Of a stretch of DNA of 64,000 nt, positions 20,901 through 42,631 are shown in pieces (position 1 is the stretch's first letter; each line of letters opens with the position of its first letter). The DNA is from Engelhardtia mirabilis (GTDB lineage Bacteria; Planctomycetota; UBA1135; GCA-002686595). The notes beneath the pieces are model-generated. The model was not told the DNA's origin. It saw only the letters and a list, made by a program, of their open reading frames with translations, and searched no databases. A program made the position numbers and the translations under genes. Where the stretch lies: assembly GCA_007751255.1 (NCBI GenBank), contig CP036296.1:4774001-4838000 (forward strand), written 5' to 3'.

Positions 20901-22917
20901 TGGCCACGCCATCGCCCGAGACCCGTTGGCTGGCGCCGATGGTGATCGGCTCCGTGTTGCCCGATCCGCCCGAGGTGCTGCCGAGTCCCCCGGTGTAGGC
21001 ATCCGTGTCTTGCAACACTCCATCGACGAAGAGCTCCATCCCGCCGGCGCCGAAGGTGAAGGCCATGTCATGCCACTCGCCGGCGGTGATCCCCTCCGCG
21101 TAGACGTAATGGTTGGCAGTATCGCTCTGCAACCTGACGGTAAGGGTCGAGCCATCGAGCCAGGCCGTCAGATGGCCGCCGTTGTCGTAGCCGCTCGAGT
21201 CCTTGGAGAAGAGCGTCTGCGCGCCCGTCGTGTCGTCAGCGTTGAAGCTGATCTGCAGCGTTCCCGAGTCGAGCTCGAAGGCGCTGTCGTGGGGAATCTC
21301 GACGTAGTCGTCGCTGCCGTCGAAGCCGGCCGCGGTCTGCCCGGGCTCGGGGCCACTCTCACCGAGGGTCACGCCACCCGTGTACGTGCCCGCGGCGATG
21401 CCCATCTCGTCGACCGCGGCGGCGTCGGTGGAATCGCCCAGGCTCCAATGCCCGACGCGGGTGAAGTCCTCGAGCTCTGTCGGCGCCTCGACCTCGCCGG
21501 CGGCCAAGAGGGTGTCGTCCCCATCGCCGCCGTCGAGCACGTCGTTACCGCTGCCACCCTCGAGGACGTTATCGCCCGCGTCGCCGACCAGGGAATCGTC
21601 GTGGGCGGTTCCGACGACGTTCTCGATGTCGATCAGGGTGTCCATGCCCGCGCCGGAGGCGGTTCCGGCGGCCAGGTCCACGTCCACGGCCCCGTCCACC
21701 GCCGAGTAGTCGACCGTGTCGACGCCTGCGCCGCCGTCGATGGTGTCGTTGTCCGACTCGTCGGCGCGCGTGGCCGCGTGGAGGTTGGTGACGGTGTCCG
21801 CGTCCACCTGGCCAGCGGTGATCGCGACGTCGGCAATCTTGCCCGAGAAGAAGTGTTGCAGGTTGTCGGCCGCGCCGTCGCTGGAGCTCCATTGGTTGGC
21901 GCCGATGACGACAGGCTCGGTGTTCCCCGTGCCCCCGGAGTTCGAGCCCAGACCGCCCGTGTAGGCGTCCGAGTCCCGCAGGACCCCGTCGACGAAGAGC
22001 TGCATGCCCTCGGAGCCGAAGCTGAACGACACGTCGTGCCATTCTCCGGCGGTGATTCCGGTGGCCTCGACGAAGTAGGAGTCGCTGGCACTCTGCAGAC
22101 GAACCTTGAGGGTCGAGCCCTCCAGGTACATGGTCAGGTGACCGCCGTTGTCGAAGTCCGTGGAGTCCTTCGAGAGCAGCCCCTGGGTGCCCGAGGTGTC
22201 GTCGGCGTTGAAGGTCAGGTGCACCGCACCGTCATCGAGTTCGAGACCGGCGTCGTGCGGGATCTCGACGTAGTCGTCCGTGCCGTCGAAGTCCGCGGCG
22301 GTGGTTCCGGGCTCCGGGCCCTCGACGCCGACGACCGGGCCATGGTAGGTGCCCGCGGGGCCGCCCGCGTCGTCTACGACGGCGCTGTCATCGGCGTCGC
22401 CCAGGGACCAGTGCGAGACCCGCGTCAGGTCCTCGAGGTCGATCGGACCCGCGCCCTCCTGGGCCACGGTCTCGACGAAAGTGTCGTCGCCCTCGCCGCC
22501 CTCGAGCAGGTCGTCGCCCGAGCCGCCGCTGAGGACGTCGCCCCCATGGCCGCCGACTAGTTGGTCGTCACCGGCGCCGCCCAGGAGCGTGTCGTCGCCC
22601 TCGTCGCCGTCGAGCAGGTCCGCGCCGCCGCCGCCGTCCAGCAGATCGTCGCCGTGGTCGCCGAACAGCGAGTCGTCGCCGTCCAGGGCGTAGGCGATGT
22701 CATCCGCCTCGGTGCCGGTGTAGATGTCGTCGCCGTCGGTCGCTCCCCCGAGGGGATCGGCGGAGTCGGCATCGACCCAGGTGGCCGACAGGAGGATGCG
22801 CGGTTCGAGGCCCTCGGCGAACAGTGCAGGCCGATTCGGCCGCAGGGCCTTGGGCTGCTCCTCTTCCTCGGCCTCGGTCTGCGGCAGCTCGTTCTCTTCC
22901 AGGTTGTCGTCGGTCAT
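11908..22917 (-). CDS. Giant LEPR-XLL surface protein with RTX, LamG and PKD-like repeats
   Basis: A 3669-residue protein. Residues 37-45 read LEPRILLSA, the LEPR-XLL N-terminal segment of planctomycete giant proteins; no classical signal peptide is present. Glycine/aspartate-rich RTX-type nonapeptides (GGxGDDxL) occur at about 78-150, 390-470 and 700-810. Two LamG/concanavalin-like domains lie between them and a third lies at about 1120-1340. About 22 PKD/Ig-like repeats fill most of the rest. At about 1600-1910 there is an unrelated insert ending in a cadherin-type tandem domain (PNVLANDIDPEGSALS). Residues 1912-3400 hold near-identical 93-residue repeats. The C-terminal 180 residues are acidic and low in complexity. 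It probably acts as a calcium-binding adhesin or cell-surface fibre. Neighbouring HlyD, GAF-HlyD and M50-HlyD genes are the likely export apparatus; no ABC ATPase is adjacent. Confidence 0.88.
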   Translation of the reverse strand: MTDDNLEENELPQTEAEEEEQPKALRPNRPALFAEGLEPRILLSATWVDADSADPLGGATDGDDIYTGTEADDIAYALDGDDSLFGDHGDDLLDGGGGADLLDGDEGDDTLLGGAGDDQLVGGHGGDVLSGGSGDDLLEGGEGDDTFVETVAQEGAGPIDLEDLTRVSHWSLGDADDSAVVDDAGGPAGTYHGPVVGVEGPEPGTTAADFDGTDDYVEIPHDAGLELDDGAVHLTFNADDTSGTQGLLSKDSTDFDNGGHLTMYLEGSTLKVRLQSASDSYFVEATGITAGEWHDVSFSFGSEGMQLFVDGVLRDSDAYTGGLGSNSGGTGNTEPVVIGANQWSSSDGAADNLQHFFSGKIADVAITAGQVDADTVTNLHAATRADESDNDTIDGGAGVDTVDYSAVDGAVDVDLAAGTASGAGMDTLIDIENVVGTAHDDSLVGDAGDNVLEGGSGNDVLDGGDGDDTLLAAGEVEAPTELEDFTRVGHWSLGDSTDAAAVDEMGIAAGTYTGGVTLGESGPEPGQTAAGFDGSDDYVEIPHDSAFELDSGTLQISFNADDTTGAQTLFSKDSSGYDNGGHLTAWLDGSTLTVRLQSDTANHYVYAEGITAGEWHDMAFTFGAGGMELFVDGVLQDTDAYTGGLGSTSGGSGNTEPITIGASQRVSGDGVANSLQDFFGGRIADVALIDGQLDDGQVEALHGQRASSDDDTISGGAGVDTVDYSAAAGGVVVDLVAGTATGAGNDMLSGIENVTGSSFDDTLSGDSGANVLTGGAGDDVLDGGAGDDLLQGGAGADTLTGGAGTDTVSYVDASSGVTVDLTIETAQDTGGGGIDTLSGIEGFVGGRYDDTIALTSPTDGATYTIDGGGGSNTIDLSGVSLSDVEFSEGQLQITTDGVSYTVVYSNVAVVELADMAVALDGTAPTVEAGADQSVDEGDLVTLGGIGVDPQGDALTYEWVQVSGPSVVLTGADGASPSFTAPNGLTNTDLVFELRVSDGETTSVDTVTVHVAADDDAPSANAGADQFVDENDTVTLTGSGVDPEGQGLTYEWVQTGGPSVTLTGANATRPTFAAPEGLEDSELTFELRVSDGVSTSVDTVTVHVAADDDGPIALGGDVGESFAWSFDGVDGAAGTDAVVAESATFVGGVSTVDVPEGLPFDAAIALDGVDDYVDLGPDVGEVLGGTATLTTWIRTSDSAATGNVWGWPSIVGSEDSGAVDDMRWGSIDANGFLHVSTGNSSGVASNVAINDGEWHHVALSRDAATGEIEIFIDGVLVGQGTGATGEFAIPEAHLGQTNDYNGTDHVHLEAEFADVRVFSRVLSVDEVTQTMQGPQTDAGTVVEEGGEYTLETTKTWTDPEGGELTYEWVQVSGPAVQLDDAASQTPTFTAPEGLANTEVGFELRVSDGVNTSTESVTITIEADDDAPSADAGVDLAVDEGDAVTLTGTGIDPEGQGLTYEWVQTGGPTVALTGADGASPNFEAPEGLANTDLTFELRVSDGVNTSIDSVTVHVAADDDAPSANAGADQFVDEGTSVTLDGSGIDPEAQDLTYTWVQTSGTPVELSDANAARPTFEAPNLVAGEVLTFELTVSDGVNETTDTVSIDLSADNDGPLVGDDSIWFDEAREYESFQELHSDFADFLGNQESTISFTGLSEGTIAGEQWSADGVHFENAVGDKYAAYSGVRPEGGNIVEHLTGYDGSIRPHGDSAYVKFANDDPASPFTITFDEPVASIGAIVGMGVQGTDHTLTITLFDADGNQIGQRTLDTELWESSSSTQNYESAFAVQLDEAIIARVEILNSSNVEFANALVIDEIAYSHTPIVSADFVTLEDVPLTTPNVLANDIDPEGSALSVGSFTQPEHGSVVYNGDGTFTYTPDVDYGGPDSFTYEAVDADGGVTTGTVEVFVRSANDAAAVDAGVDQAVSEGDIVTLSGSGSDVDGDALTYEWVQTGGPTVTLTGGDGANPTFEAPEGLSNTDLTFELRVSDGQVTSVDTVTVHVAADDDAPSASAGADQFVDENTPVTLTGSGVDPEGQGLTYEWVQTGGPTVALTGADGATPTFDAPEGLANTDLTFELRVSDGVNTSVDTVTVHVAADDDAPTASAGADQFVDENATVTLTGSGVDPEGQGLTYEWVQTGGPTVALAGADGASPTFDAPEGLANTDLTFELRVSDGVNTSVDTVIVHVAADDDAPSAIAGADQFVDENALVTLTGSGVDPEGQGLTYEWVQTGGPTVALTGADGASPTFDAPEGLANTDLTFELRVSDGVNLSVDTVTIHVAADDDAPSASAGSDQFVDENAAVTLTGSGVDPEGQGLTYEWVQTGGPTVALTGADGATPTFDAPEGLANTDLTFELRVSDGVNTSVDTVTVHVAADDDAPTASAGADQFVDENATVTLTGSGVDPEGQGLTYEWVQTGGPTVALAGADGASPTFDAPEGLANTDLTFELRVSDGVNTSVDTVIVHVAADDDAPSAIAGADQFVDENALVTLTGSGVDPEGQGLTYEWVQTGGPTVALTGADGASPTFDAPEGLANTDLTFELRVSDGVNLSVDTVTIHVAADDDAPSASAGSDQFVDENAAVTLTGSGVDPEGQGLTYDWVQTGGPTVALTGADGASPTFDAPEGLANTDLTFELRVSDGVNLSVDTVTIHVAADDDAPSASAGSDQFVDENAAVTLTGSGVDPEGQGLTYEWVQTGGPTVALTGADGASPTFDAPEGLANTDLTFELRVSDGVNLSVDTVTIHVAADDDAPSASAGSDQFVDENAAVTLTGSGVDPEGQGLTYEWVQTGGPTVALAGADGASPTFDAPEGLANTDLTFELRVSDGVNTSVDTVTVHVAADDDAPSADAGSDQFVDENDAVTLSGSGVDPEGQGLTYQWVQTGGPTVALTGADGASPTFDAPEGLVNTDLTFELRVSDGVNLSVDTVTIHVAADDDAPTASAGSDQFVDETSPVTLTGSGVDPEGQGLTYEWVQTGGPTVALTGADGASPTFDAPEGLVNTDLTFELRVSDDVNLSVDTVTIHVAADDDAPSASAGSDQFVDENAPVTLTGSGVDPEGQGLTYEWVQTGGPTVALTGADGASPTFDAPEGLANTDLTFELRVSDGVNLSVDTVTIHVAADDDAPSASAGSDQFVDENSPVTLTGSGVDPEGQGLTYEWVQTGGPTVALTGADGASPTFDAPEGLANTDLTFELRVSDGVNTSVDTLTIHVAADDDAPTAGAGVDQWVDEHDRVQLSGFGVDPEGQGLTYEWVQTGGPAVGLVGADGPEPSFDAPEGLVNTDLTFELRVSDGANTSVDTVTIHVAADDDAPSADAGADLVVGENEPVVLSGSGVDPEGQGLSYRWVQVSGPEVELDDADSADLRFDAPELAGDSDLVFQLAVSDGTNTSIDTVTVHVQAEDDVPVIRIDEGDLYVKAGDSIQFETGAFDLEGQELTYTWRQVEGPPVSLIHGDTPQPVVGVPADFGNVTLRFELEVSDGTNVVTQMVELHVQDDVLGSSGLEDGGGADVGGPEAAGPEPESDEAPQASGTGLAAGAGASLEEVAHSPTGVGAPMELPSLEVEPDLPMERHDVTELGASDEDLDDTAPALAAEALAAGFESLFEPVDDRGEVGAESVRLTPVALPDGGSDAGGDGGAEPEVEGPRGLLGLWAMMRGLAGVRDDREGEEGRSGR
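13000..17180 (-). repeat. Tandem 279-bp repeat array inside the giant gene
   Basis: About fifteen copies of a 279-bp (93-codon) unit follow each other in frame. Each encodes a PKD-like domain with the core DQFVDEN, VDPEGQGLTY, GPTVALTGADGA and FELRVSDGVN. Copies in the middle are nearly identical at the DNA level, while those at both ends diverge. The lack of synonymous change points to recent expansion or gene conversion. Confidence 0.9.
15167..16827 (-). repeat. Higher-order direct repeat (two ~824-bp copies, period 837 bp)
   Basis: Bases 15167-15990 and 16004-16827 appear identical at a spacing of 837 bp, exactly three 279-bp units. The first differences I find outside the block are at 15166/16003 on one side and 15991/16828 on the other. 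A whole three-unit block was duplicated, most simply by unequal recombination. An assembly error in this array is also possible. Confidence 0.8.
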
Positions 22918-30266: not shown

Positions 30267-30905
30267 GTGATCCAACCCGTCGATCGCCCCTCGCGCTTCG
30301 CCCGCGCGCTCTTCGCCGACGAACCGGCCCCGCGCCTGTGGCGAGTGGGCTGGTGGGTCGTCTGGGCGGTGCTGTTCTGCGCGGTCTTCGCCCTGTTGGC
30401 GGACCTGCCGCCGGGCTCCTACATGCCCCTGGCCGGCTTCGCGACCTTCGTGGCAGCCTTGGTCGCGCCGATCTGGTTGGTGGGCACCTACCTCGGGATC
30501 CGCACCGCCCTGGCGCGGCGGCGTTGGGTCGACGTGGCCCCGCTCATGCCCTGGGCCATGGCCGCGCTGCTCGCCACCGGCGTGATCGGCACCGTGCTGG
30601 GCGACTTCCCCGAGCGTGCCGCTTTCGCCCTCTCCCGCCCCGCCCTGGACGACCTGGTGGCCGAGGTCACCGCCGTCGAGCCCGAGCTCCAGGAATTCCC
30701 CCCGCGCCTCGTCGGCCTCTACCTGGCCGACGAGATCACCCACTTCCGGTCGGGGCGCGTGCGCTTCACCGTCCTGGGCACGCGCGACTTCTGGGGCCAG
30801 TACGGCCTGTTGTGGATCCCCGAGGGCGGCGCGATCCCCGCCGGCAACGACTACGAGTTCGAGGACTGGGGCCACGGCTGGTTCGCCTGGCGCCGGGACT
30901 ACTGA
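30267..30905 (+). CDS. Hypothetical membrane protein
   Basis: A protein of 212 residues with a GTG start 54 bp after the reductase operon. Three hydrophobic segments are visible: VGWWVVWAVLFCAVFALLADL, LAGFATFVAALVAPIWLVGTYLG and LMPWAMAALLATGVIGTVLG. A soluble C-terminal domain of about 90 residues follows (ALDDLVAEVTAVEPELQEF; ITHFRSGRVRFTVLGTRDFW) and ends in an aromatic-rich tail. I recognise no family. The stop codon overlaps the convergent sigma-factor gene by 7 bp, so the two transcripts must run into each other. Confidence 0.7.
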   Translation: MIQPVDRPSRFARALFADEPAPRLWRVGWWVVWAVLFCAVFALLADLPPGSYMPLAGFATFVAALVAPIWLVGTYLGIRTALARRRWVDVAPLMPWAMAALLATGVIGTVLGDFPERAAFALSRPALDDLVAEVTAVEPELQEFPPRLVGLYLADEITHFRSGRVRFTVLGTRDFWGQYGLLWIPEGGAIPAGNDYEFEDWGHGWFAWRRDY

Positions 30906-33682
30906 TCGAACTCGAGGAATCCGAGTTCGAGGGTCTGGCCCGCCTCGACCCGCAGGCCCTCGCGCGTCGCCCGCCGGTCGCCGCTGAACACCTTCAGGGT
31001 GTAGACACCCGGCTGCAGCGGCGGACGACTCCATTGCCCCCCGGGGTCACACCAGGCCCGGTCGGGGAGAGTCACGCCGTCGCGCTCGAGGGTCGCGACG
31101 GTCATATCGAGTTGACTGCCCTCAGGCGGCCGCTCGAAGGCGATCGCGCCGGGTTGCTCGAAGACGATGGACAAGTCACGACGTGCGAAGGGCAGCAGGT
31201 CGACATCGGGAACCACGATCGAGCCCATCGACGTGGAACGCGCTTGGACCTCGAGCCGCGTCGCCGCGAGCGGACCGATGGTCACGCCGTCCGAGCCTGC
31301 GTCGAGGTTGAAGCGCTGCACCCTGAACTCCGAATCGCTGGGACTGACCCAGAGCTGCACGTCGCGCACAGGGTTGCCGAGGCTGTCGGTGACCCGGACG
31401 CGCAGCTCCGCGGTCGGCATCCGCTCCGCGGGAACCTGGAGCAGCAACCCAGTCGTCCCCGGCTCGACGTCTTCGACCAGCAGAGCAGGGTTCAACCCGG
31501 AGATCCCCGGAGGCTGAACCTCGAGGTCCCCGGGGGTGTTGAACGTGCCAGTGATCTCGAACTCTCCCTGCGGGCCGGTTCGCACCGTCGAATGGCCCAC
31601 CACACCCGGTCCGCCGCCGCTGAACGAGACTCCCCAACCCTCGAGGCCCGAGCCCCCGTCTCCGACCAACTGGCCCGAGAGGGTCGTCATCGCGGGCACG
31701 ACCAGCTCGACTCCATCCAAGCCGGTCGGACCCACTTCGACCTCGAGTTCGACGGCGGCGCCGCGCATCGCCCCCCTGCCCACCTTGGCCGCCAGCCGCG
31801 CCTTGCCCCCGGGCGAGATCCGACGCAACTCGAAGCTCCCATCGTCGTCCGTACGTGCGACGTCCGCGGCGCCGGCCATGCCATCCCAAGACCAAGCTCG
31901 AGGCTCGCGCCGATCGTAGACAACCGCGCCCGCGACCGGGTTCCCGTCGACCTCCGTCACGCGACCGCGAATCGAGACCGCCGCCTCGAGGACGATCCGG
32001 AGCGCCTCGACTCCATCCACGCGCACGTCGACGGACTCGATCGCGTGACCCGCGGCGCGCACCCCGATCTGATAGTCGCCCGGCGCGACGTCGTCGAAGT
32101 GGACGTTGCCCCGCTCATCGGTGCGCTCGAACAGGTTCGGCGATTCGGTCCAGACGCTTCGCGAGCCGTAGTTGGACACCCGCACCGAGTTGGAGCGAGG
32201 GGCCAGGAGTACATCGGCGCCTACGGCAGCGGCGCCATCGGCACCCACCACGGTCACGACCAGGGATCCGCCCCCCGGCGCCAGGATCAGATCGATTCCG
32301 GCTGCATCCTTGCCGTGGAACATCGGGCTCACCGTCTCCGTGGCGTGCCAACCGGGCTTGCTAGCGTGAAGTCGCCCAGTGCTGCCGGCGCCGTCGTAGG
32401 CGAATGTGCCGTCGGCTCGGGACTCCGCAATTGGGAGCACGATCCCGCCTTGGCAGACGACACAGACTTCGGCGCCTGCGACTGGCATGCCGCGGGTGTC
32501 GAGAACCCTCCCAGAGACTCGAGAACTCCCGACGAGGTCGATCACGACCTCGACCTCACCTATCTCGGGCACGGTGACCGACCGCCGCAATCCGCTGGCC
32601 AACATCACCACGGCGATGCCGCTAGGCAGATCCGAAACGAACGCCTGACCTTCTCGATCGGAGAAGAGCGCAATCGGATCGTGACCCAGCCCCTCACCCT
32701 GCGGATCGACGATCACGTGGCGCCCCGGAACGGGCTCATCGCCTCGCACCAGGCGCACCCGGATCGAGCGTCCCATCGGAACTTCTGCGGCGGGGACCTC
32801 GGCCGGCCCCTCGACTGGTATCCGATCGACCGCAGCCTGCCCTTCGAGCATCGCGAGTGGGCTTGTAGCGGCGTCCGCAACCTCGTCGTCCGCGACGAGA
32901 GCCCGACCCTGCGCCTGGGCCTGGTCCGGGATCGACGGCCGGACTCCGATCGGATCGAGGGACCAGATCGAGAACGCCGCCAGGGCCACCAACGCCGCCG
33001 CCACACTCCAGGTCTTCCAAGTCATCAGCACACTCAGGACGCCGGAGGCGCCGATCAGGGTCTTCGTCGTCGCAGCCCGGGCGAGCACGACTTCACGCAC
33101 ATGTCCCAGGCCGCTGTCCACATCGACCCCGCCCCACCACACCGGCAACACCCCCGCCGGGACCGAGCGCCGCAAGAGCGCCACGGCCCGGTGCAACTGG
33201 CTGCGCACGGTGCCCGGGCTACGCCGCAGGGTGTGCGCGATCTCCCCCGGCTCGAGGCCGTGGCGAAAGCGCATCAGGGCGGGCTCGCGATAGGGCTCCG
33301 GCAGTCCATCCAGAGCCTGCAGCAGGGCGATCGAGAGCTCGCGATGGGCGAGGATCTCGACCGGGTCGTCGAGGTCGAGCCCCCGGGCCAACCATTCCAC
33401 GTCGAGCGCGCGCCCGCGGTCGCGATGCACGCGGCGCGCGCGGTTGGCCAGGATCCCCGCCAGCCAGGCGCCTAGCTTGCGCTGGCCGTCGAACTCCTCG
33501 GGAGCCTCGATGGCCGCCAGGAAGGTCTGCTGGACCAAGTCCTCCGCCGTAGCGACGTCCCCGACCAGATGCAGCGCGAGCTGCAAGAGGTCGGTCGCCG
33601 TGGCGTCGAAGACCTCCGCCAGCCGGCGCGGGTCGCCGGTCCGGCGCCAGGCGAGGAATCCGTTCGTAACGCTGTCAGTCAC
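30899..33682 (-). CDS. ECF sigma factor fused to membrane helix and carboxypeptidase-regulatory-like domains (copy 1)
   Basis: A protein of 927 residues with a GTG start. Residues 31-90 match sigma region 2 (ALHLVGDVATAEDLVQQTF) and 118-172 match region 4 with its helix-turn-helix (IAHTLRRSPGTVRSQLHRAV). The motif MTWKTW precedes one membrane helix at about 225-241. The C-terminal ~680 residues are periplasmic, with several carboxypeptidase-D-regulatory-like beta-sandwiches (SSRVSGRVLDTRGMPVAGA; SIRGRVTEVDGNPVAGAVVY) of the kind that bind or stabilise at the cell surface. A sigma factor tethered in the membrane would need proteolytic release or would act at the membrane. It is the last of four tandem paralogues, with a private -35-like motif exactly 35 nt before its start. 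Confidence 0.85.
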   Translation of the reverse strand: MTDSVTNGFLAWRRTGDPRRLAEVFDATATDLLQLALHLVGDVATAEDLVQQTFLAAIEAPEEFDGQRKLGAWLAGILANRARRVHRDRGRALDVEWLARGLDLDDPVEILAHRELSIALLQALDGLPEPYREPALMRFRHGLEPGEIAHTLRRSPGTVRSQLHRAVALLRRSVPAGVLPVWWGGVDVDSGLGHVREVVLARAATTKTLIGASGVLSVLMTWKTWSVAAALVALAAFSIWSLDPIGVRPSIPDQAQAQGRALVADDEVADAATSPLAMLEGQAAVDRIPVEGPAEVPAAEVPMGRSIRVRLVRGDEPVPGRHVIVDPQGEGLGHDPIALFSDREGQAFVSDLPSGIAVVMLASGLRRSVTVPEIGEVEVVIDLVGSSRVSGRVLDTRGMPVAGAEVCVVCQGGIVLPIAESRADGTFAYDGAGSTGRLHASKPGWHATETVSPMFHGKDAAGIDLILAPGGGSLVVTVVGADGAAAVGADVLLAPRSNSVRVSNYGSRSVWTESPNLFERTDERGNVHFDDVAPGDYQIGVRAAGHAIESVDVRVDGVEALRIVLEAAVSIRGRVTEVDGNPVAGAVVYDRREPRAWSWDGMAGAADVARTDDDGSFELRRISPGGKARLAAKVGRGAMRGAAVELEVEVGPTGLDGVELVVPAMTTLSGQLVGDGGSGLEGWGVSFSGGGPGVVGHSTVRTGPQGEFEITGTFNTPGDLEVQPPGISGLNPALLVEDVEPGTTGLLLQVPAERMPTAELRVRVTDSLGNPVRDVQLWVSPSDSEFRVQRFNLDAGSDGVTIGPLAATRLEVQARSTSMGSIVVPDVDLLPFARRDLSIVFEQPGAIAFERPPEGSQLDMTVATLERDGVTLPDRAWCDPGGQWSRPPLQPGVYTLKVFSGDRRATREGLRVEAGQTLELGFLEFDQ

Positions 33683-33703
33683 CGCGGGCCCTGCACTTCA
33701 GGA

Positions 33704-33717
33704 CGCCCAGCGTTGCA
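33704..33717 (-). promoter_or_regulatory. Conserved -35-like motif, sigma copy 1
   Basis: On the gene strand it reads TGCAACGCTGGGCG. Its first T is exactly 35 nt before the first base of the GTG start at 33682. A GTGCA at about -13 is shared with copies 3 and 4 and may be the -10 region. It is preceded by GGAATC. Confidence 0.65.
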
Positions 33718-33810
33718 GATTCCTGGGGGATTCGTTCCGCCCGCTCGTGGAGCGTCAGGCTCGTGGCCTGGCCTGGGCCGGGGCCCGGCTCCCCCAACCT
33801 CGCTCAGGGC

Positions 33811-36585
33811 TCAGGAACCCAGGTCGATGCGGCCCAGGTCGAGGGTCTCGCCGGCCTCGATCACGAGGCCCTCGAACTCGCGGGCGCGGTCCGAGTCCAG
33901 GATGCGGAGCAGGTAGCGTCCGGGTTGCAGGGGCGGGCACCACCAGCGGCCCGCACGGTCGCGCCAGATCCTGGTCCCGACCTCGGCCCCCTGCGCTTGC
34001 ACGGCGGCGTAGTTCGAGATCGACGCACCGGTCGCCCACTCGAAGCGCAGGCAACCGGGCTGCTCGAACCGGGCCTCGACCTCGGTCGTCTCGCCCGGCT
34101 CGAGCACGAGCGGGCCGACCACGAGGCTGCCGCAGGACGACGAGGTCACCTCGAGCATGACGGCACCCGGCGGCATGGGTCCGAGGGTCACGACCGGCGC
34201 GCCCGGCACCACCGCAGTCCGTCGCCGCGCGTCGGGCCCGGGGTCCTCGCCCTCCATCCACAGGTCGACGACGGCGTCGTCGAGGGGCCGCCCCGCCTGG
34301 TCTACGACTCGCATCGAGATCAGAGCGCTCTCCTCCTCGATGGCGGGCACGCTGAAGTCCTGACTCGGGCCACCAGGCACGATGCCGTCCCAACTAGCGA
34401 CTTCTCGCGAGCTCAATTGGCCCGGCCGGAACACCGACAGGGTGCCCTGCTGGTCGGACTGCAACTGGAGCTCGAAACGGCCGTCGGGTCCGCTGGCTCC
34501 CTGCGCCAGACCGGCGACGCTGAACTGTTCGGCCACAAACCTCAGCCCCCAACCCTCCAGGGGCTCGCCCGTCGCACTCACCAAGCGTCCGGCGATGAGA
34601 TGGAGCTGCGGCAGCTCGAAGTCGACCGTTCGAGTCCGCCCCTCCCGCGTGTCGATCGACTGCGAGACGCTGCGCCCGAACAACGTTGTCGAAGCGGCGG
34701 ACAGCCGTACGGCCGATCGCCGGGGAACCAGCGGCAGCACGTAGCGCCCGGCCGCGTCGGTCAGGGCCGCGATGCGCGCCTCCGACCACGGCATCATGTC
34801 TCCTGCAATGCCGAAGTACACGGCAGCGCCCTTGACCGGTCGACCGTCGCTGCCTGTGACCCGACCGGCGACCTCGACTCCGGGCTCGAGGGTGATCTCG
34901 CGCGACGCCTCGTCGCCTACCTCGTGATCGATCTGCTGCACGGCGAAACCGGCTGCTCGGACCGTCAAGAAGTACGGTCCGGGCGACAGGTCGTCGAGTC
35001 GTAGCCTCCCCGCTGCGTCCGTCAGACCGCTGGCTCCGGGTGGTTGGTCGCACGATTCGAAGGGCCCGCGATCTACCGACCGCACTTCGGTGACCCGAGC
35101 GATCGCGTCCACTGCCGCCCCAATCACCGGCTGACCGGCCGGATCGACCACGGTCAGGTCCACACCAGCCGATCCAGGGGCGAGCACCAACTCCACGTGA
35201 TCGGCGTCTCGCCCCATGAAGTTCGGCGTCGCCGATCCACGGGCCGACCAACCGGGCTTCGTCGCGTGGAGTCGGACCCGTCCCACGGCGCCGTCGAACT
35301 CGAAGCTCCCGTCATCCCTCGACCGTGCAACGGCCAGGATTCGACCTCCCCGTACCTGCGCGAAGACGACGGCGTCCGGAACGGCCATGCCACTCGGATC
35401 GACCGTGGTACCGCGAACTCGAGCGCTGCCGACCAGGTCGAACTCGATCGTGGCCGTGTGTCCAGCTTCGATGCGAGCAGTCCGCCGCTCGCCACCGGCC
35501 AGCTCGACCTCGTAGTCGCCGGGCACGATCCCGTCGAGCCTGAACCGTCCCTGTGAGTCGGTCCGCCCATTCGACGCGGGGGCCTCGATAGCCGAGCCGG
35601 GCCGGACGAGCAGCTCACGCCCCGCGACCGGACTGCCGGCACGATGAACTCGGATGGCGAGCGCGCCGTCGAGGACCGCGCTGGCGGCCGCGGCGGAGAC
35701 TGACTCCGACCGAACAGGAACCCGCTCGACGACTGCGATCGATTCGAGCTCCTCGAGCGCGCGACTCCCCTCGGCGACGCCGTGAACGAGGACCAGCCCC
35801 GCCTCCCCGGCTTCGATCGCCGCTCCCTCGCCGTGGCCCGAGCCGGCGAATAGCCCGCGCAGGCCCTCGCCGACGAACGCCACCGCCAGCAACACCAATG
35901 CGGCCCCGATCCAACTCTTCGCGCTTGTCATCAATGCTCCGACTCCGGCCAGGTTGACCGCGACTTCCGACTTGCTTGCAGCAGCGACGATCCGCTCTCT
36001 CAACGACCCCCACGAAGGGGCCGGATCGAATCCGGTGACCCAAGCCGGCAGCACCCCCGCCGGTAGCGACCGACGCAGGAGCGCCACGGCCCGGTGCAAC
36101 TGGCTGCGCACGGTTCCGGGGCTGCGTTCGAGGGTGTGGGCGATCTCGAGCGGTTCGAGGCCGTGGTGGAAGCGCAACAGGGCTACCGCGCGGTAGGGCT
36201 CGGGCAGGCCGTCGAGGGCCTCGAGCAGCGCCGCCGAGAGGTCCCGGTCGGCCGCCAACTGGGCGGGGTCGGGGGCTTCGAGGGCGGCGGTGAGCCGCTC
36301 GGGGTCGACCTCGCGCGCCTGTTCCCGCCGATGACGGCGCGCGCGGTTGGCCAGCACTCCGGCCAACCAGGCGGCGACGAACCCCTCGCTGGCGAAGTCC
36401 TCGGGGGACTCGATCGCGACCATGAAGGTCTGCTGCACCAGGTCCTCGGCGGTGGCGACGTCACCGACCAGGTGCAGGGCCAGCTTGACCAGCTCGGGCG
36501 CGGTGGCGTCGAAGACCTCACCCAAGAGGCGCGGGTCGCGGCGGCGTCGCCAGGCGAGGAAGAGCTCTGTGGACGGGTCGTTCAC
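33811..36585 (-). CDS. ECF sigma factor fused to membrane helix and carboxypeptidase-regulatory-like domains (copy 2)
   Basis: A protein of 924 residues. The GTG at 36585 is chosen because the product then aligns with the other copies (NDPSTELFLAWRR) and the conserved upstream motif has the same spacing. Sigma regions 2 (LALHLVGDVATAEDLVQQTF) and 4 (IAHTLERSPGTVRSQLHRAV) are intact. The pre-helix motif is MTSAKSW, followed by the helix IGAALVLLAVAFVGEGLRGLF. The extracytoplasmic part holds repeats such as SARVRGTTVDPSGMAVPDAVV and VEVAGRVTGSDGRPVKGAAVY. It lies 128 bp upstream of copy 1 on the same strand. Such fusions belong to the planctomycete-type ECF groups with C-terminal extensions; target promoters are unknown, but autoregulation of the array is suggested by the shared promoter motif. 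Confidence 0.85.
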   Translation of the reverse strand: MNDPSTELFLAWRRRRDPRLLGEVFDATAPELVKLALHLVGDVATAEDLVQQTFMVAIESPEDFASEGFVAAWLAGVLANRARRHRREQAREVDPERLTAALEAPDPAQLAADRDLSAALLEALDGLPEPYRAVALLRFHHGLEPLEIAHTLERSPGTVRSQLHRAVALLRRSLPAGVLPAWVTGFDPAPSWGSLRERIVAAASKSEVAVNLAGVGALMTSAKSWIGAALVLLAVAFVGEGLRGLFAGSGHGEGAAIEAGEAGLVLVHGVAEGSRALEELESIAVVERVPVRSESVSAAAASAVLDGALAIRVHRAGSPVAGRELLVRPGSAIEAPASNGRTDSQGRFRLDGIVPGDYEVELAGGERRTARIEAGHTATIEFDLVGSARVRGTTVDPSGMAVPDAVVFAQVRGGRILAVARSRDDGSFEFDGAVGRVRLHATKPGWSARGSATPNFMGRDADHVELVLAPGSAGVDLTVVDPAGQPVIGAAVDAIARVTEVRSVDRGPFESCDQPPGASGLTDAAGRLRLDDLSPGPYFLTVRAAGFAVQQIDHEVGDEASREITLEPGVEVAGRVTGSDGRPVKGAAVYFGIAGDMMPWSEARIAALTDAAGRYVLPLVPRRSAVRLSAASTTLFGRSVSQSIDTREGRTRTVDFELPQLHLIAGRLVSATGEPLEGWGLRFVAEQFSVAGLAQGASGPDGRFELQLQSDQQGTLSVFRPGQLSSREVASWDGIVPGGPSQDFSVPAIEEESALISMRVVDQAGRPLDDAVVDLWMEGEDPGPDARRRTAVVPGAPVVTLGPMPPGAVMLEVTSSSCGSLVVGPLVLEPGETTEVEARFEQPGCLRFEWATGASISNYAAVQAQGAEVGTRIWRDRAGRWWCPPLQPGRYLLRILDSDRAREFEGLVIEAGETLDLGRIDLGS

Positions 36586-36606
36586 GGTGAACTGGCGCGT
36601 GGCGCC

Positions 36607-36620
36607 CGCCCAGCGTTGCA
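36607..36620 (-). promoter_or_regulatory. Conserved -35-like motif, sigma copy 2
   Basis: On the gene strand it reads TGCAACGCTGGGCG, identical over 14 nt to the motif of copy 1, and is preceded by GGAACC. It begins exactly 35 nt before the GTG at 36585. The presumed -10 region differs from the other three copies. Confidence 0.65.
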
Positions 36621-36650
36621 GGTTCCCGGCGGATTCTCGACGCCTCCGCG

Positions 36651-39416
36651 TCAGTCGAGCGCGACTTGCCCCAGCTCCAGCGTCTCGCCGGCGACCACGA
36701 CGAGCCCTCGGCACGGCACAAGCGGCTCGCCGTCGCGATCCACCAGCAAGAGGTCGTAGGTGCCGGGTTGGAGCGGTCCGACCCGCCAACGCCCGTCGCC
36801 CATGCGGGTCGCAGCCTCGGTCAGGCCGGGGCTCTCGGTCGACCGCGCAAAGACCGCGGGCTCGACGACGTCGGCCGTCGGCCGCCAACTGAGGTCGATG
36901 TTACCGGCCTCGAGGATCGCCGCCGTGCCGAGGTCGCGCAGCTCCCCTGCGCGGAGCTCGACCTCACCGAGGGACAGCCGCCCGCGATCGGCCGTGCGGA
37001 CCTCGACGCGCACGGGACCCGGCGCGAGCTGTCCGACCTCGAGCACACCGGTTGCAGGTTCGACCGGCTCGAGGCTGCCCATGGTCGGGTAGCCCTCGCG
37101 CTCTACCGCGTAGCCGATCTGCGCACCCGACAGGGGCCTGCCCGCACCGTCGACCACCGCGATCCGAAAGCCCGCATCGGGGAAGCGCTCGGACTCGACC
37201 CACAGGTCCACGCGATCGCCCGGACGCACGTCACAACGCTCGGCCACGGGCGGCAGGCCCCCGCGTGCGGGCGGCATCGCGACCAGGCAACCTGGCTCCG
37301 TCCCGGCGGCGTCGACCTCGAAGGAGCCGTCGGCGCCGGTGGCCTCTTGTCGGCCGCGCGCGACCAGGTCGCCGCGGGTCTCGAAGGCCACCCACCAGCC
37401 CGCGAGGGGCTCGCCGTCGGGGCCGCGCAGGCGACCGCCGATCCGCGCGTCGGGTGCGAGGGTCAACTCGACCGTGGTCAGCTCGCCGGCGCGCAGGGCA
37501 CGGGTCGCCCGGGCGCCGGACTCGTCCGCGCCGGCGCGGCGAGCGGTGATGGTCGCCTCGGGATCGGGCTCGACGCCGTCCAGACGGAAAGCCCCATCGC
37601 CGTCGGTAAGCGTCGTCACGCGCGCGAACTCCACGCCGCTGGGACCTGCGACCTGGGCCCCGGCCAGCGGCCGCCCCTGCGGGTCGCGCACGTGTCCAGC
37701 CACCGTCGCTCCGTCGGTCAGACGCAGGGTCACGCGCGTCGTGCGACCCGGTTCGAGCTCGACCGTGCGCGACTCGCCGACGCGACCCGGCGCGCGAGCG
37801 CCGACCGCCACGGTGGCCGCGGGCAGGGACTCGAAGCGAAAGCGCCCCTGGTCGTCGACCCGCACGGCCCGCGGCCGCAGGCCCAGGGTGATGCCCTCGC
37901 CACGGCGCCGCATCTCGACCTCGGTCCAAAGGGCCAGCTCGGCCCAGGTGCCGGGCACCGGATCGCCGCGCTCGTCCACGGCGAGCCCCTCGAGCACCGC
38001 GGACTCGGCGTGCATGACCAGCCGGACGTCGATCGTCGTGCGCGGCTTGGCGTCGGCCCAGACCGTGTCGAGCACGTGGTAGTCCGGGTGCTCAGCGACC
38101 AGTCGCAAATCACTGCCGGCCCCGTCGATCGTGAAGCGGCCGTCGGCGTCGCTGACGGCTACCTCCATCGGCGGCGCGTGGCGATTCAGGGCCAGGATCC
38201 GCGCGCCCGCGATCGGCTCGTCCAGGGCGTCGACGACGTTGCCTTCGACGCGCGCCAACTGCGCCAGATCGATCTCGATCGACTTCGACTCGTCCCTCCC
38301 GATGGCTCCGTCGCGCCAGATGCCGCCGGCAACCTCCACGGCGAACGAACACGGGGGAAGTCGGTCGACGACGGCCAGCCCGCGCTCGTCGGTCTTGCGC
38401 CAGCGCGCGTTGAGCTCCGGATCGGGCCCGTCGACACGCAGACGCAGCTCGCGCCCGGCGACCGGGCGACCGTCCGCATGGATGTGAATCGTCACGCTCC
38501 CGTCCGCTGCAGAGTCGTCCACGGTGGATCCGATCGGCGAGTGTGCGCCAGGAACGTCGACTGCAGACGATAGCAGCGCTGACCGCTCGGTGTCGGCGGG
38601 CGTCGTCAGCGCGACCAGTGCGTCGCCGCCGGCCTCGGGACTGGCGGTCGGTGCAGCGGGGGCCGCGTCGCGGCCGCCCTCGAACACGATCAGGGCGAGT
38701 AGGGAAACGGCCGCCGCGGCCGCTGCGATCCAGATCTTGGTGGTCACGATCAGTGCTCCCGCATGGGTGAGGGCGGTGAGCGACCCCGCGACCAGGCCGG
38801 GCTTGGTGCCCGCGGCCAGGACCGCCTCGCGGACGCCAGCGAGCGAGGCTCGAGCATCGAACAGCGGCAGGATCCCCAGGGCCGCACCAGTTGGCAGCGC
38901 CCGCCGGAGTTGCTCCAGAGCCCGGTGCAACTGCACGCGCACGGTCCCCGGCGCGCGGCCGAGGGCGTGGGCGATCTGCGCCGGCTCGAGGCCGTGGACC
39001 AGCCGCAGCACCGCCGCCTGGCGGTAGGGCTCGTCCAGGGCGTCGAGGGCCTCGAGCACCGCGGCGGAGAGCTCACGGTTCGCCGCCAACTCGGCCGGGT
39101 CCGCGGCGGCGAGGGCGCGCTCGACCCGCTCCGGGTCGATCCGCCTCGCGCGGTCGCGGTGCACCCGCCGGGCGCGGTTGGCCAGGATCCCCGCCAGCCA
39201 GGCCTCGACCCCGCGCGCGGCGTCGAAGAGCTCGGGCGCCTCGATGGCCGCCAGGAAGGTCTGCTGCACCAGGTCCTCGGCCACCTGCGCGTCCCCCACC
39301 AGGTGCAGGGCCAGGCGCAAGAGGCCCGGCGCAGTGGCGTCGAACACGGCCTCCAGGGAGGCCGCGTCCCGGCGCCCGCGCCAGGTCAGGAAGTGCCGTG
39401 TGGAGAGGTCGTTCAC
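36651..39416 (-). CDS. ECF sigma factor fused to membrane helix and carboxypeptidase-regulatory-like domains (copy 3)
   Basis: A protein of 921 residues with a GTG start (NDLSTRHFLTWRGRR). Region 2 (LALHLVGDAQVAEDLVQQTF) and region 4 (IAHALGRAPGTVRVQLHRAL) are intact; region 4 is the most diverged of the four. The pre-helix motif is VTTKIW, then the helix IAAAAAAVSLLALIVF. The extracytoplasmic part has carboxypeptidase-regulatory-like units (LARVEGNVVDALDEPIAGARI; TVAGHVRDPQGRPLAGAQV; ARIGGRLRGPDGEPLAGWWV). It lies 65 bp upstream of copy 2. The first ~190 residues are well conserved among copies while the sensor half varies, which suggests that the copies answer different external signals. 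Confidence 0.85.
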   Translation of the reverse strand: MNDLSTRHFLTWRGRRDAASLEAVFDATAPGLLRLALHLVGDAQVAEDLVQQTFLAAIEAPELFDAARGVEAWLAGILANRARRVHRDRARRIDPERVERALAAADPAELAANRELSAAVLEALDALDEPYRQAAVLRLVHGLEPAQIAHALGRAPGTVRVQLHRALEQLRRALPTGAALGILPLFDARASLAGVREAVLAAGTKPGLVAGSLTALTHAGALIVTTKIWIAAAAAAVSLLALIVFEGGRDAAPAAPTASPEAGGDALVALTTPADTERSALLSSAVDVPGAHSPIGSTVDDSAADGSVTIHIHADGRPVAGRELRLRVDGPDPELNARWRKTDERGLAVVDRLPPCSFAVEVAGGIWRDGAIGRDESKSIEIDLAQLARVEGNVVDALDEPIAGARILALNRHAPPMEVAVSDADGRFTIDGAGSDLRLVAEHPDYHVLDTVWADAKPRTTIDVRLVMHAESAVLEGLAVDERGDPVPGTWAELALWTEVEMRRRGEGITLGLRPRAVRVDDQGRFRFESLPAATVAVGARAPGRVGESRTVELEPGRTTRVTLRLTDGATVAGHVRDPQGRPLAGAQVAGPSGVEFARVTTLTDGDGAFRLDGVEPDPEATITARRAGADESGARATRALRAGELTTVELTLAPDARIGGRLRGPDGEPLAGWWVAFETRGDLVARGRQEATGADGSFEVDAAGTEPGCLVAMPPARGGLPPVAERCDVRPGDRVDLWVESERFPDAGFRIAVVDGAGRPLSGAQIGYAVEREGYPTMGSLEPVEPATGVLEVGQLAPGPVRVEVRTADRGRLSLGEVELRAGELRDLGTAAILEAGNIDLSWRPTADVVEPAVFARSTESPGLTEAATRMGDGRWRVGPLQPGTYDLLLVDRDGEPLVPCRGLVVVAGETLELGQVALD

Positions 39417-39436
39417 CGGGGGGTCTGCACCAGAGC

Positions 39437-39451
39437 CGCCCCATCGTTACA
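39437..39451 (-). promoter_or_regulatory. Conserved -35-like motif, sigma copy 3
   Basis: On the gene strand it reads TGTAACGATGGGGCG and begins exactly 35 nt before the GTG at 39416. GTGCAG follows at the same position as in copies 1 and 4. It is preceded by GGAATTCC. Confidence 0.65.
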
Positions 39452-39549
39452 GGAATTCCGGCAACCGCGGTCCGCCGCTCGCTCGGTGGTCGGGCCGAGT
39501 GAAGGCCTTCCGGAGGCCGCGCTACACGAAGCTCCGAGTCGAGCCTCCT

Positions 39550-42303
39550 CTAGCGACTGAAGTCGACGGGACCGACCGCGAGGACCTCGCCCGCGGCGAC
39601 CACCAGGTCCTCGAGTCGGTGCTCCTCGCCGCCGCTCGACAGCGCGAGCGAATAGCGCCCGGGCTGCAGCGGGGGGCAGCGCCACTGGCCTCCAGCGTCG
39701 CGCCAGAGGCTGTCGACCTGGTGTCCCTCGCTGTCCTGCAGCTCGACCTCGCCCGCCCCGCGCGGGCTCCAGTCGAGGGCGATCGAGCCCGGCTCGGCGA
39801 GGGTGATCGTGTGCTCGACCGTCGAGCCGGCCACGAGCTCGAAGCTCTCCGACCGCAGCCGACCGTGGGCGGGGGACTCGATCAGGACGCTCACGGGACC
39901 GGGCGGTCGACGGCCGAGGTCGAGGGTGGACTGCCCCTCGGTCAAGAGGCCACTCGCCAACGAACGATTGCGACGGTCGACGACCACGTAGCGCGCGCCC
40001 ACGGCGGGCAGGCCCCGCGCGTCGACGATCGACAGGAGCAGCCCCGCCGTGTCCGCTGGATCGCCGCCGAGGACCAAGTCGTGGGGAGACTGCGACGGCC
40101 GCACGCCCTCGAAGGAGCCGCTGTCGGCGAAGCCGCCGACGTCCGGCGTGTCGACGTACAGCGTGCCGATCGAATCGGGACGCACCACGACTGCGAAGCC
40201 GCCGTCGTCCTCGGCCGTCGCCCCCGCGGCGCCCTGTGGATCGCCGTCGTCGGGGATGAAGATCAGGGACGCCCGGCCGACCGGCGAGCCGTCGGCGAAG
40301 ACGACCCGGCCGCTGATCGATTCGGCGGGCGGGAAGGTCAACAAGAGGTCGTCGATCCCCGCGCCGGCGAGTCGGACCTCGGTCGACGTGCGCAGGATGC
40401 GCGAGTCATTCACCTGCGCGAGGATCTGGACCGACCGCTCGAGCGGCACCGCGCGGAGCACGAAGCGCCCGTCGTCATCGGTCTCGACGGTGACGCCGCC
40501 GCCGCGCTCGAAGCCGAGTGGCCCGCTGGCTCCCTGACGACTTACCGTCGCGCCGGCCACGGGGCGTCCGTCGGCGCCGACCACTTGCCCGGCGACGGTG
40601 CCCCCGCGCTCGAGTGCAATCGCCATCTCGCGCGAAGCGGACAGCTCGACCTGCGTCCGGACATCGGCGAAGCCATCGGCCCAGACCGTGAGCAGGTAGT
40701 CACCCCGCGCCAGCCCGCCGAGCCGCAGAGTCCCGTCCGTGCTGGATCGCCCACCGCCACCGGGCGGTAGGTCGGTCACCTGCATCCCACCCCGGAACTG
40801 GGTCGCGCCCTCGACCAACACGGGTGCGAGGTCGACCAGGGCCCCGGGCACGGGTCCGCCGCCGTCGTCCGTCAGATGCAGGTCGAGCCAGGTCTCTCCC
40901 GCCTGGAGCACGAGCTCGACGCCGAGCACGTCACGTGAGAGGAACCGCGGATGGAACGTCTGCGCCGCCGAGTAGCCGGGGAGCGTCGCGCGCAGCTCGA
41001 TCTGCGTCCTGGCACCGTCGAACTCGAAGCGCCCTTCGCGGTCCGTGCGGGCGACGGCTTGCGGCTCCCCGTCGCGCGGCAGGCACCAAACTCGGGCCTC
41101 CGCCAGGGGCATGCCCGCGCCATCGACCACGCGGCCGGCGACCCGCGACGAGTCGGCGAGGTCGAATTCGGCCACGGCCGGCTCACCGGCCACTAACTCG
41201 ACGGTCCGGGTGAGCCCGCCGCCGAGCTCGACGGTCGCCGTTCCCTCGCGCAGCTCGCCCACGCGCGCGCGGCCGTCCGAGTCCGTCACGCCACTGACCT
41301 CGACGCTCGTGGACGCTGCGCCATCGCCGCGCGCGACGAAGTGTCGACCCTCGACCGGAATGCCGCCGCGGCGGACCGCAATGGTGAGCAGCGGCCGCGG
41401 ATCGACGGCAGCGACTCGGGCCTGCGGCTGCGTGGGCTCGACCTCAACCCGCGAAGCGTCGACGGGGCCGAGCCCGGAGACGTCCGGCGTGGTGACGGCG
41501 TCGAGGGACGACAGGCTGGCGCCACCGCTGGGCGAGTGCGCCGCGACCGGTTCGCCGGAGGCGGCCTCGGGCCGCAGGAACGCGCCGCCGACGGCGACGG
41601 CGGTGGTGACGATCAGGGCGACGACGATCCAGCTCTTGAGTCCCATGACGAGGGCGAGGGCGCCCGCGGCGCCCGTAGGAATCGGAGCCCCGGCGGCCCG
41701 CGCGAGAACGGTCTCGCGCAGGCGTCCGAGGCGGGCTTCAGCGTCGATCGTCAACATCCAGACCGGCAGCGCGCCGGCCGGGACCGCCCGCCGCAGGAGC
41801 TCCGCCGCGCGGTGGAGCTGGCTGCGTACGGTCCCCGGACTGCGCCGCAGGGCGTGGGCGACCTCCGCCGGCGAGAGGCCGTGGCGGAAGCGCAGCAGGG
41901 CGGGCTCGCGGTAGAGCTCGGGCAGGGCGTCGAGGGCGCGTAGGAGCGCCGCCGAGAGCTCGCGGTCCGCGAGCGCCTCGGACGGGTCCTCGCCACCGAG
42001 CACCCGCTCGAGCCGCTCGGGGTCGAGCTCACGCCGCCGCTCCCGGTGCACCCGCCGGGCCCGGTTGGCCAGGATTCCCGCCAACCAGGCGCCGGCGGGG
42101 CGCTCGCCGTCGAAGCGCTCGGGCGCCTCGATCGCGGCCAGGAAGGCCTGCTGGACCAGGTCCTCGGCCGTCGCCCCGTCGCCCACCAGGTGCAACGCCA
42201 GCTTCAGAAGCTCTGGCGCCACCGCGTCGAAGACCCGCGCCAGGAACCGCGGATCGCCGCCGCGGCGCCAAGCCACGAAGTCGGCTGTGACTGAATCGGA
42301 CAC
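39550..42303 (-). CDS. ECF sigma factor fused to membrane helix and carboxypeptidase-regulatory-like domains (copy 4)
   Basis: A protein of 917 residues. The GTG at 42303 gives SDSVTADFVAWRRGGD, aligned with the other copies; a longer frame exists but crosses the conserved promoter motif. Region 2 (LALHLVGDGATAEDLVQQAF) and region 4 (VAHALRRSPGTVRSQLHRAA) are intact. The pre-helix motif is MGLKSW, then the helix IVVALIVTTAVAVGGAFL. Extracytoplasmic units include SSRVAGRVVDGAGMPLAEARV and GTVAGQVVGADGRPVAGATV. It is the first gene of the array, 133 bp upstream of copy 3. No anti-sigma factor gene is found near any copy, so control probably runs through the attached extracytoplasmic domain. Confidence 0.85.
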   Translation of the reverse strand: MSDSVTADFVAWRRGGDPRFLARVFDAVAPELLKLALHLVGDGATAEDLVQQAFLAAIEAPERFDGERPAGAWLAGILANRARRVHRERRRELDPERLERVLGGEDPSEALADRELSAALLRALDALPELYREPALLRFRHGLSPAEVAHALRRSPGTVRSQLHRAAELLRRAVPAGALPVWMLTIDAEARLGRLRETVLARAAGAPIPTGAAGALALVMGLKSWIVVALIVTTAVAVGGAFLRPEAASGEPVAAHSPSGGASLSSLDAVTTPDVSGLGPVDASRVEVEPTQPQARVAAVDPRPLLTIAVRRGGIPVEGRHFVARGDGAASTSVEVSGVTDSDGRARVGELREGTATVELGGGLTRTVELVAGEPAVAEFDLADSSRVAGRVVDGAGMPLAEARVWCLPRDGEPQAVARTDREGRFEFDGARTQIELRATLPGYSAAQTFHPRFLSRDVLGVELVLQAGETWLDLHLTDDGGGPVPGALVDLAPVLVEGATQFRGGMQVTDLPPGGGGRSSTDGTLRLGGLARGDYLLTVWADGFADVRTQVELSASREMAIALERGGTVAGQVVGADGRPVAGATVSRQGASGPLGFERGGGVTVETDDDGRFVLRAVPLERSVQILAQVNDSRILRTSTEVRLAGAGIDDLLLTFPPAESISGRVVFADGSPVGRASLIFIPDDGDPQGAAGATAEDDGGFAVVVRPDSIGTLYVDTPDVGGFADSGSFEGVRPSQSPHDLVLGGDPADTAGLLLSIVDARGLPAVGARYVVVDRRNRSLASGLLTEGQSTLDLGRRPPGPVSVLIESPAHGRLRSESFELVAGSTVEHTITLAEPGSIALDWSPRGAGEVELQDSEGHQVDSLWRDAGGQWRCPPLQPGRYSLALSSGGEEHRLEDLVVAAGEVLAVGPVDFSR

Positions 42304-42631
42304 TGGAACCCTTGCACCCACAGCGCCCGATCGTTGCACGGATCGAGCGATTCGTCGGGGACCGTCGCCGAGGGAGGCATCGCCGGCCGATCGAGAACGC
42401 ATCGATTCGGGACCCCGGCGAGCTGGGGGCCCGACGCGGTCGGCGGCCGTCGCGCGCCCCCTGGCGGCGACGCGTGCGCGCCCCCACTCGGCGAGGGGGC
42501 CGGCGGGGGGCTCGGACGGCGATCCGCGCCAGGCACGGGCCGACGGGCGGCCGACCCCCGCGCTTCCCGTGCGCGCTGCGGCGCAGGGGCGTCGGCCGCT
42601 GCCGCTCCGGTGTTCCTACAATCGCGCCGCT
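42304..42631. other. Divergent intergenic region between sigma copy 4 and hydrolase
   Basis: These 328 bp hold the promoter motif of sigma copy 4 next to its start. The rest should contain the promoter of the hydrolase gene, which I cannot place. No RNA gene or repeat was seen; ORFs crossing it are extensions or shadows of the flanking genes. Confidence 0.4.
42324..42338 (-). promoter_or_regulatory. Conserved -35-like motif, sigma copy 4
   Basis: On the gene strand it reads TGCAACGATCGGGCG and begins exactly 35 nt before the GTG at 42303. GTGCAAG follows at the position shared with copies 1 and 3. Confidence 0.65.

Follow-up and report, generated by a model that had tools for sequence, protein, structure and literature searches.

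Autoregulation of extracytoplasmic function (ECF) sigma factors, and the prediction of their promoter specificity from DNA-contacting residues, are already known in principle: about 55% of ECFs are predicted to be autoregulated, and specificity is described as predictable from the contact residues (PMC8103513, citing Todor et al. 2020). In ECF48, ECF52, ECF53 and IutY (ECF243), the sigma domain is joined C-terminally to a transmembrane (TM) part and an outer domain, with release presumed to occur by proteolysis (PMC8999054). As for how the DNA is read, in the SigW-DNA structure T171 and T168 contact A-34, K170 contacts G'-31, and R175 contacts G-35, and in SigZ a Ser is paired with C-34 (PMC6713349). 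Planctomycetes are also counted among the phyla with few Shine-Dalgarno (SD) genes and with a leaderless and/or RPS1-like bias (PMC5397173). Here we analyzed a 64-kb stretch of the planctomycete Engelhardtia mirabilis (contig CP036296.1, positions 4,774,001 to 4,838,000; referred to as the window), which has a G+C content of 67-75% and belongs to a genome of 6.95 Mb in 2 contigs. It contains four minus-strand ECF sigma genes in tandem, whose products are 917-927 residues long. In the explanation that we consider probable, each of these genes has an ECF promoter placed directly against its start codon and read by its own sigma product, which would give positive feedback and a leaderless mRNA.

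The promoter would consist of a -35 element G(T/C)AACG, a gap of about 14 nt, and a -10 region around GTGCA, directly abutting the start codon. The sigma domain, tethered to a TM helix and to C-terminal repeats of the beta-sandwich type, would be held at the membrane, and once freed or activated it would transcribe its own gene, resulting in positive feedback. Transcription would begin at the start codon or no more than about 2 nt away from it, and the mRNA would therefore have no leader. The conservation, the spacing and the covariation of the promoter were established by computation, and autoregulation of these sigma genes is strongly supported by them. We infer the start site and the positive feedback in the cell, and the proposed membrane topology and proteolytic release are read from the protein architecture and from ECF52/IutY-type cases. 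The window genes resemble the autoregulated ECF promoters described before in having AAC in the -35 box and in their proposed positive autoregulation (PMC8103513), but differ from them in that transcription is predicted to start right at the start codon and that the -10 region is GTGCA/AAG-like, not CGT.

The four genes and their predicted promoter elements are as follows, with promoter indices counted from the G of the -35 element:

30899..33682, minus strand: sigma gene 1, 927 aa, GTG start, ECF sigma domains, TM helix and CarboxypepD_reg repeats
33711..33717, minus strand: -35 element of gene 1, TGCAACG
33691..33696, minus strand: -10 region of gene 1, GTGCAG, at indices 20-25 (supported by the family logo and because indices 21-23 covary with residues 84/81)
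33811..36585, minus strand: sigma gene 2, 924 aa, GTG start, Ser161
36614..36620, minus strand: -35 element of gene 2, TGCAACG
36593..36599, minus strand: -10 region of gene 2 (assigned by position only; poor match, with the conserved A shifted by 2)
36651..39416, minus strand: sigma gene 3, 921 aa, GTG start, Val161
39445..39451, minus strand: -35 element of gene 3, TGTAACG (top-scoring promoter of the scanned 464 kb, with a profile that includes gene 3)
39425..39430, minus strand: -10 region of gene 3, GTGCAG
39550..42303, minus strand: sigma gene 4, 917 aa, GTG start, Ser161
42332..42338, minus strand: -35 element of gene 4, TGCAACG (second-best promoter score in the scanned 464 kb, with a profile that includes gene 4)
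42312..42317, minus strand: -10 region of gene 4, GTGCAA

The original prediction, which was made from the window alone, placed TGYAACG exactly 35 nt before all four GTG codons, and this is what we found: on the minus strand its T lies at 33717, 36620, 39451 and 42338, and the first base of the GTG at 33682, 36585, 39416 and 42303. GTGCA near -13 is present in three of the four genes, as predicted (genes 1, 3, and 4, with G at -14 and A at -10), and is missing from gene 2. The upstream DNA is otherwise unconserved, also as stated: over 150 nt, pairwise identity in register averages 0.83 at -35..-26 versus 0.31-0.45 in the other six segments, and the best in-register 9-column identity (0.87) was matched by none of 2000 shuffles. 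The proposed 15-mer unit TGYAACGMTSGGGCG, on the other hand, is exact at two sites only, with 3 and 2 mismatches at the other two, and turned out to be over-extended, as the window holds 20 matches with up to 3 mismatches versus 23.1 expected, i.e., no enrichment. The parts that stand are TGYAACG and a weak -10, with G(T/C)AACG as the predicted core of the -35 element. A search of the own genome for TGYAACG followed after 16-18 nt by TGCA gave 5 hits versus 8 for the reversed control, but this gap does not match the one in the array (15 nt), and the result was set aside. The exact 35-nt spacing is real in this array but is peculiar to it, and is not constant across the family, where the hexamer G is found 32-42 nt ahead of the assigned start. 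As a separate observation, the genome contains four copies of TACAACGCTCGGGCG (G000:C1 1745334, 1780906, 3923930, and 4729028); at the copy in locus L005, the sole start codon at promoter spacing opens a frame of 58 codons.

Profile searches covered the own genome, a set of 41 genomes (the own genome and 40 relatives), 81 same-family genomes, and named records. They yielded 145 non-redundant members with upstream DNA, including seven from the own genome with the window genes among them, after the exclusion of 20 duplicates, 6 members with a score <100, 3 without a start, and 1 unmatched at the N-terminus. Among the named genomes, the 20 best sigma-domain matches comprise 16 planctomycetes and 4 labelled only as "bacterium"; the other 47 matches are weaker and mostly belong to other phyla. 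One family match (G064:C9:54012-54434) holds a single in-frame TGA and is perhaps a decayed copy.

The motif is conserved throughout much of this family. A de novo search in 53 of the first 57 members, with the window genes left out, returned ttt..gcggatttcc.GTaACGc., the hexamer of which peaks near -35 (24-column log-likelihood 218 versus 78-85 in five shuffled sets); an eight-column de novo search recovered another motif, weaker and scattered. A motif-seeded but position-free scan over 100 nt located the hexamer at -40..-31 in 101 of the 145 members, versus 16.7 expected if uniform. With a prior favouring -35 it was placed at about -42..-31 in 134 members, a rise that is partly due to the prior and includes some poor matches. 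The strict form G[TC][AGT]ACG occurs at 32-38 nt in 61 of the 145 members, compared with 8 of 168 called genes of the own genome (counting any start up to codon 50) and with 6 of 168 controls taken from inside genes. In the logo of the 134 placed members, the hexamer reads G 96%, T 69%, A 49%, A 72%, C 88%, and G 83%, and the -10 region has A in 70% at index 24.

The promoter bases also vary together with those residues of the sigma factor that would be expected to contact them. Mutual information (MI) was computed for each promoter position against the columns of the sigma alignment in the 134 members. Residue 161 comes out on top for bases 1, 2, and 3 of the -35 hexamer (excess MI 0.39, 0.43, and 0.24 bits; runners-up 0.16, 0.18, and 0.19, respectively) and is also first for them by z-score, and base 5 points to residue 158. 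In the -10 region, indices 21-22 peak at residue 84 and index 23 at residue 81, both in region 2. The excess never rises above 0.18 at upstream (-18..-1) or spacer (6-19) positions. Upstream of the -35 element, a T-rich stretch at -16..-14 and an A/T block at -7..-5 are seen in the 134 members without strong covariation with sigma residues, and are perhaps a UP-like element. A blind control, in which the placement ignored -35 bases 1-3 and the window genes were left out (141 members), still put residue 161 at the top for bases 1 and 2 and residues 84/81 at the top for indices 21-23, with residue 160 leading for base 4. With a tree built without the recognition helix, 67 independent pairs were obtained, and the motif was kept in 26 of the 41 pairs with the same residue 161 versus 2 of the 26 with a different one (p = 4e-6); residue 161 was the best of 188 columns in this test and residue 164 the second. 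Among the main residue classes, Val161 with His164 goes mostly with GTAACG, Val161 with Ala or Gln164 with GTTACG (6 of 7), Met161 mostly with GTGACG or GTTGCG, and Ala161 with GCAACG (4 of 6).

Residue 161 is aligned to T171 of B. subtilis SigW and residue 160 to K170, which touch A-34 and G'-31 respectively, and the contacts suggested by the covariation agree with the SigW-DNA structure. The 161-equivalent residue thus appears to read -34 as in SigW and SigZ, and Ser goes with C-34 as in SigZ (PMC6713349), although the -35 reading is deduced here from covariation and not, as for SigW, from a structure. Taken together with the conservation across the family, these results support the prediction that TGYAACG is a -35 box and that the motif is the target of the encoded sigma factors.

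Several results weigh against this reading, or against parts of it. Even under the favourable prior, the motif is absent from its expected position in 11 of the 145 members, and some of the placed ones match poorly. Base 4 of the -35 element peaks at residue 150 and only then at 160 by excess MI (160 is first by z-score), and base 3 loses its residue-161 peak in the blind control. No sigma residue stands out as the partner of the best-conserved -10 base, the A at index 24, and index 25 peaks at residue 31 (0.26 bits), which lies outside the known DNA-reading residues. The Ser161 class, to which three of the window genes belong, is mixed (GCAACG, GCCGCG, GAGTCG, and others). Among the independent pairs, 15 of the 41 with the same residue 161 fail to keep the motif, and the pairs with different residues are on average more diverged (median 1.40 versus 0.96), although at distances >0.4 the motif is still kept in 19 of 33 same-residue pairs versus 2 of 25 different-residue pairs. 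In the genome scan described below, the scores of genes 1 and 2 (9.8 and 9.1) are well below those of the other two, and the two genes rank only fifth and eighth of 55. Finally, the start codons from which the spacing was measured were assigned by the analyst, with ATG near the start of homology preferred.

With these starts, the hexamer G lies 33-37 nt from the start codon in 118 of the 134 placed members. If this G is numbered -35, as in SigW, the start codon would fall at about -1 to +1, and this spacing by itself supports the leaderless reading of the original prediction. SD-like matches of at least 5 nt occur at chance level (10 of 134 members versus 7.9% in shuffles). The missing SD is weak evidence for leaderless transcripts, because such matches are not enriched in sampled genes of the own genome (7.2% at 138 first ATGs versus 7.4% at 889 internal ones, with crude gene calls); the anti-SD is intact in the 16S gene. 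TANNNT at -13/-12 of candidate starts was counted in 20 of 407 cases versus about 0.8 per position outside -14..-10 (L253-L272 and the window), which suggests that leaderless starts, those of housekeeping transcripts included, are common in this genome. With +1 predicted at the start codon and no SD, the transcripts of the window sigma genes are likely leaderless. They would thereby resemble the leaderless genes of low-SD phyla, among which Planctomycetes have few SD genes (PMC5397173), except that the promoter adjoining the start is of the ECF and not of the housekeeping type.

The strongest alternative bears on this point, namely that the self-read promoter is real but most of the mRNA comes from a promoter further upstream and carries a leader, its closeness to the start codon being incidental. 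Several promoters can serve one ECF gene, as for rpoE, and the leaderless reading draws on sequence. However, a constant distance of 33-37 nt in so many members would be pointless if the leader came from elsewhere, and both the chance-level SD matches and the apparent frequency of leaderless starts in the genome speak against it, so we regard it as unlikely.

Within the window, each gene is preceded by a promoter that fits the specificity of its own product: genes 1, 2, and 4 combine Ser161 with GCAACG (the recognition helix of gene 1 is TVRSQLHRA), and gene 3 combines Val161 with GTAACG. Gene 3 is therefore predicted to have a distinct specificity, and genes 1, 2, and 4 share one and may cross-activate each other, so that the four genes, treated as one set in the original prediction, are alike in three cases but do not form a uniform set. 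A tandem array of five sigma genes was also found in another genome (L154:1-15001, G085), of which four are Met161/GTGACG and one, gene 5, is Ser161/GCAACG; its sigma domain is 77% identical to that of gene 4 of the same array, despite the Ser/GCAACG versus Met/GTGACG difference. At other ECF loci of the own genome, the strict motif is present at 32-38 nt in 2 of 23 loci (two of which returned the same gene). These are L026 (Ser/GCAACG) and L029 (Val/GTAACG), where the promoter lies 35-36 nt before an ATG and the helix residue is as the rule expects. A wider list of class motifs gave any match in 7 of 30 ECF loci, five of them only GCCGCG, GAGTCG or GTAGCG, with the helix unread in 12, which is too few to judge. 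A general insulation of paralogues within genomes was not supported, as the same hexamer is found in 7.0% of 128 within-genome versus 6.5% of 2909 between-genome pairs at <50% identity (11.3% of 151 versus 7.1% of 3009 for all pairs; 80 members of 19 genomes, assigned to genomes by hand).

It is improbable that the promoter is instead read by another sigma factor, whether housekeeping or a different ECF. ECF genes are indeed numerous in the genome (36 matches at E<=1e-10), and the GCAACG common to genes 1, 2, 4, and L026 makes cross-reading likely, but the promoter bases track the recognition residues of the sigma encoded by the adjacent gene, in tree-independent pairs too. For the regulon beyond the own gene, we scanned 464 kb of the own genome, made up of the window and 20 further stretches and amounting to about 6.7% of the 6.95 Mb. 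The promoter profile used for this was derived from all 134 placed members, the window genes among them. Genes 3 and 4 are the two top hits (26.2 and 18.8). There was no sign of further targets in these 464 kb, where 55 sites (score >=6, open reading frame of 80 codons) compare with 36-92 from ten column-permuted profiles, and two other high-scoring sites, L267 and L272, precede only short doubtful open reading frames.

Recent tandem duplication as the sole reason for the shared motif has next to no probability, since the four genes are indeed tandem paralogues with sigma domains of genes 2-4 60-73% identical to that of gene 1, but the DNA around the motif is unconserved, the C-terminal parts are only 29-36% identical pairwise, and the same promoter recurs in members from other genera and in distant relatives. 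Equally negligible is a leader RNA or translation signal in place of a promoter, which the closeness to the start codon might evoke, because the motif is made up of two blocks spaced like a -35 and a -10 element, and each of them covaries with the DNA-binding region of sigma that corresponds to it.

The encoded proteins are ECF (group IV) sigma factors with a membrane-fused layout. Sigma70_r2 and Sigma70_r4_2 are above the Pfam gathering scores in all four, and TIGR02937 reaches 70-80 bits (cut-off 42.9). They fall short of TIGR02984 (Planctomycetaceae subfamily 1; 49-57 bits versus a cut-off of 183.75) and of TIGR02983 (SigE-fam_strep), the best listed NCBIfam (78-92 bits versus 141.55). A predicted TM helix follows the sigma domain, with a hydropathy peak from residues 224-228 in all four proteins and in 59 of 59 family members with at least 320 residues of sequence. 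The AlphaFold2 model has a helix at 214-242 (confidence score pLDDT about 55-86 along it; mean for the model 85), and residues 156-173 form one helix, which contains residue 161. For gene 4, a longer ATG-started frame to 42402 is possible, yet homology starts at the GTG. This layout of sigma domain, TM helix, and putative outer part is shared with ECF48/52/53 and IutY/ECF243 (PMC8999054), but the window proteins differ from these in their CarboxypepD_reg repeats and tandem arrays, and no zinc-finger anti-sigma domain was found in them among Pfam matches up to E 0.01. Elsewhere in the window, an open reading frame of 3669 codons lies at 11908-22917 on the minus strand.

Our literature search returned no leaderless autoregulated planctomycete ECFs and no promoter code for this subfamily, although Todor et al. 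2020 and the ECF classification of 2021 may contain it. As far as the literature was searched, three things are new: the promoter of this planctomycete subfamily of membrane-fused sigma factors, the way in which that promoter is coupled to the start codon, and the paired switches seen inside arrays. Tentatively, such arrays could be pictured as one-protein surface-to-gene circuits in which the sigma factor is sensor, switch, and amplifier, with leaderless self-read promoters, and whose channels split or merge when one residue of the helix and one or two bases of the promoter change together; this picture is possible, though we hold it with well under even confidence. The analysis assigns a target promoter, base by base and from sequence alone, to a group of planctomycete membrane-fused sigma factors on which our searches returned no study, and predicts which paralogues of an array can cross-activate. 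It also offers a clear case of a regulated promoter that is coupled directly to the start codon. The matched changes in helix and promoter form a natural data set with which the specificity rules of ECFs may be tested and extended.

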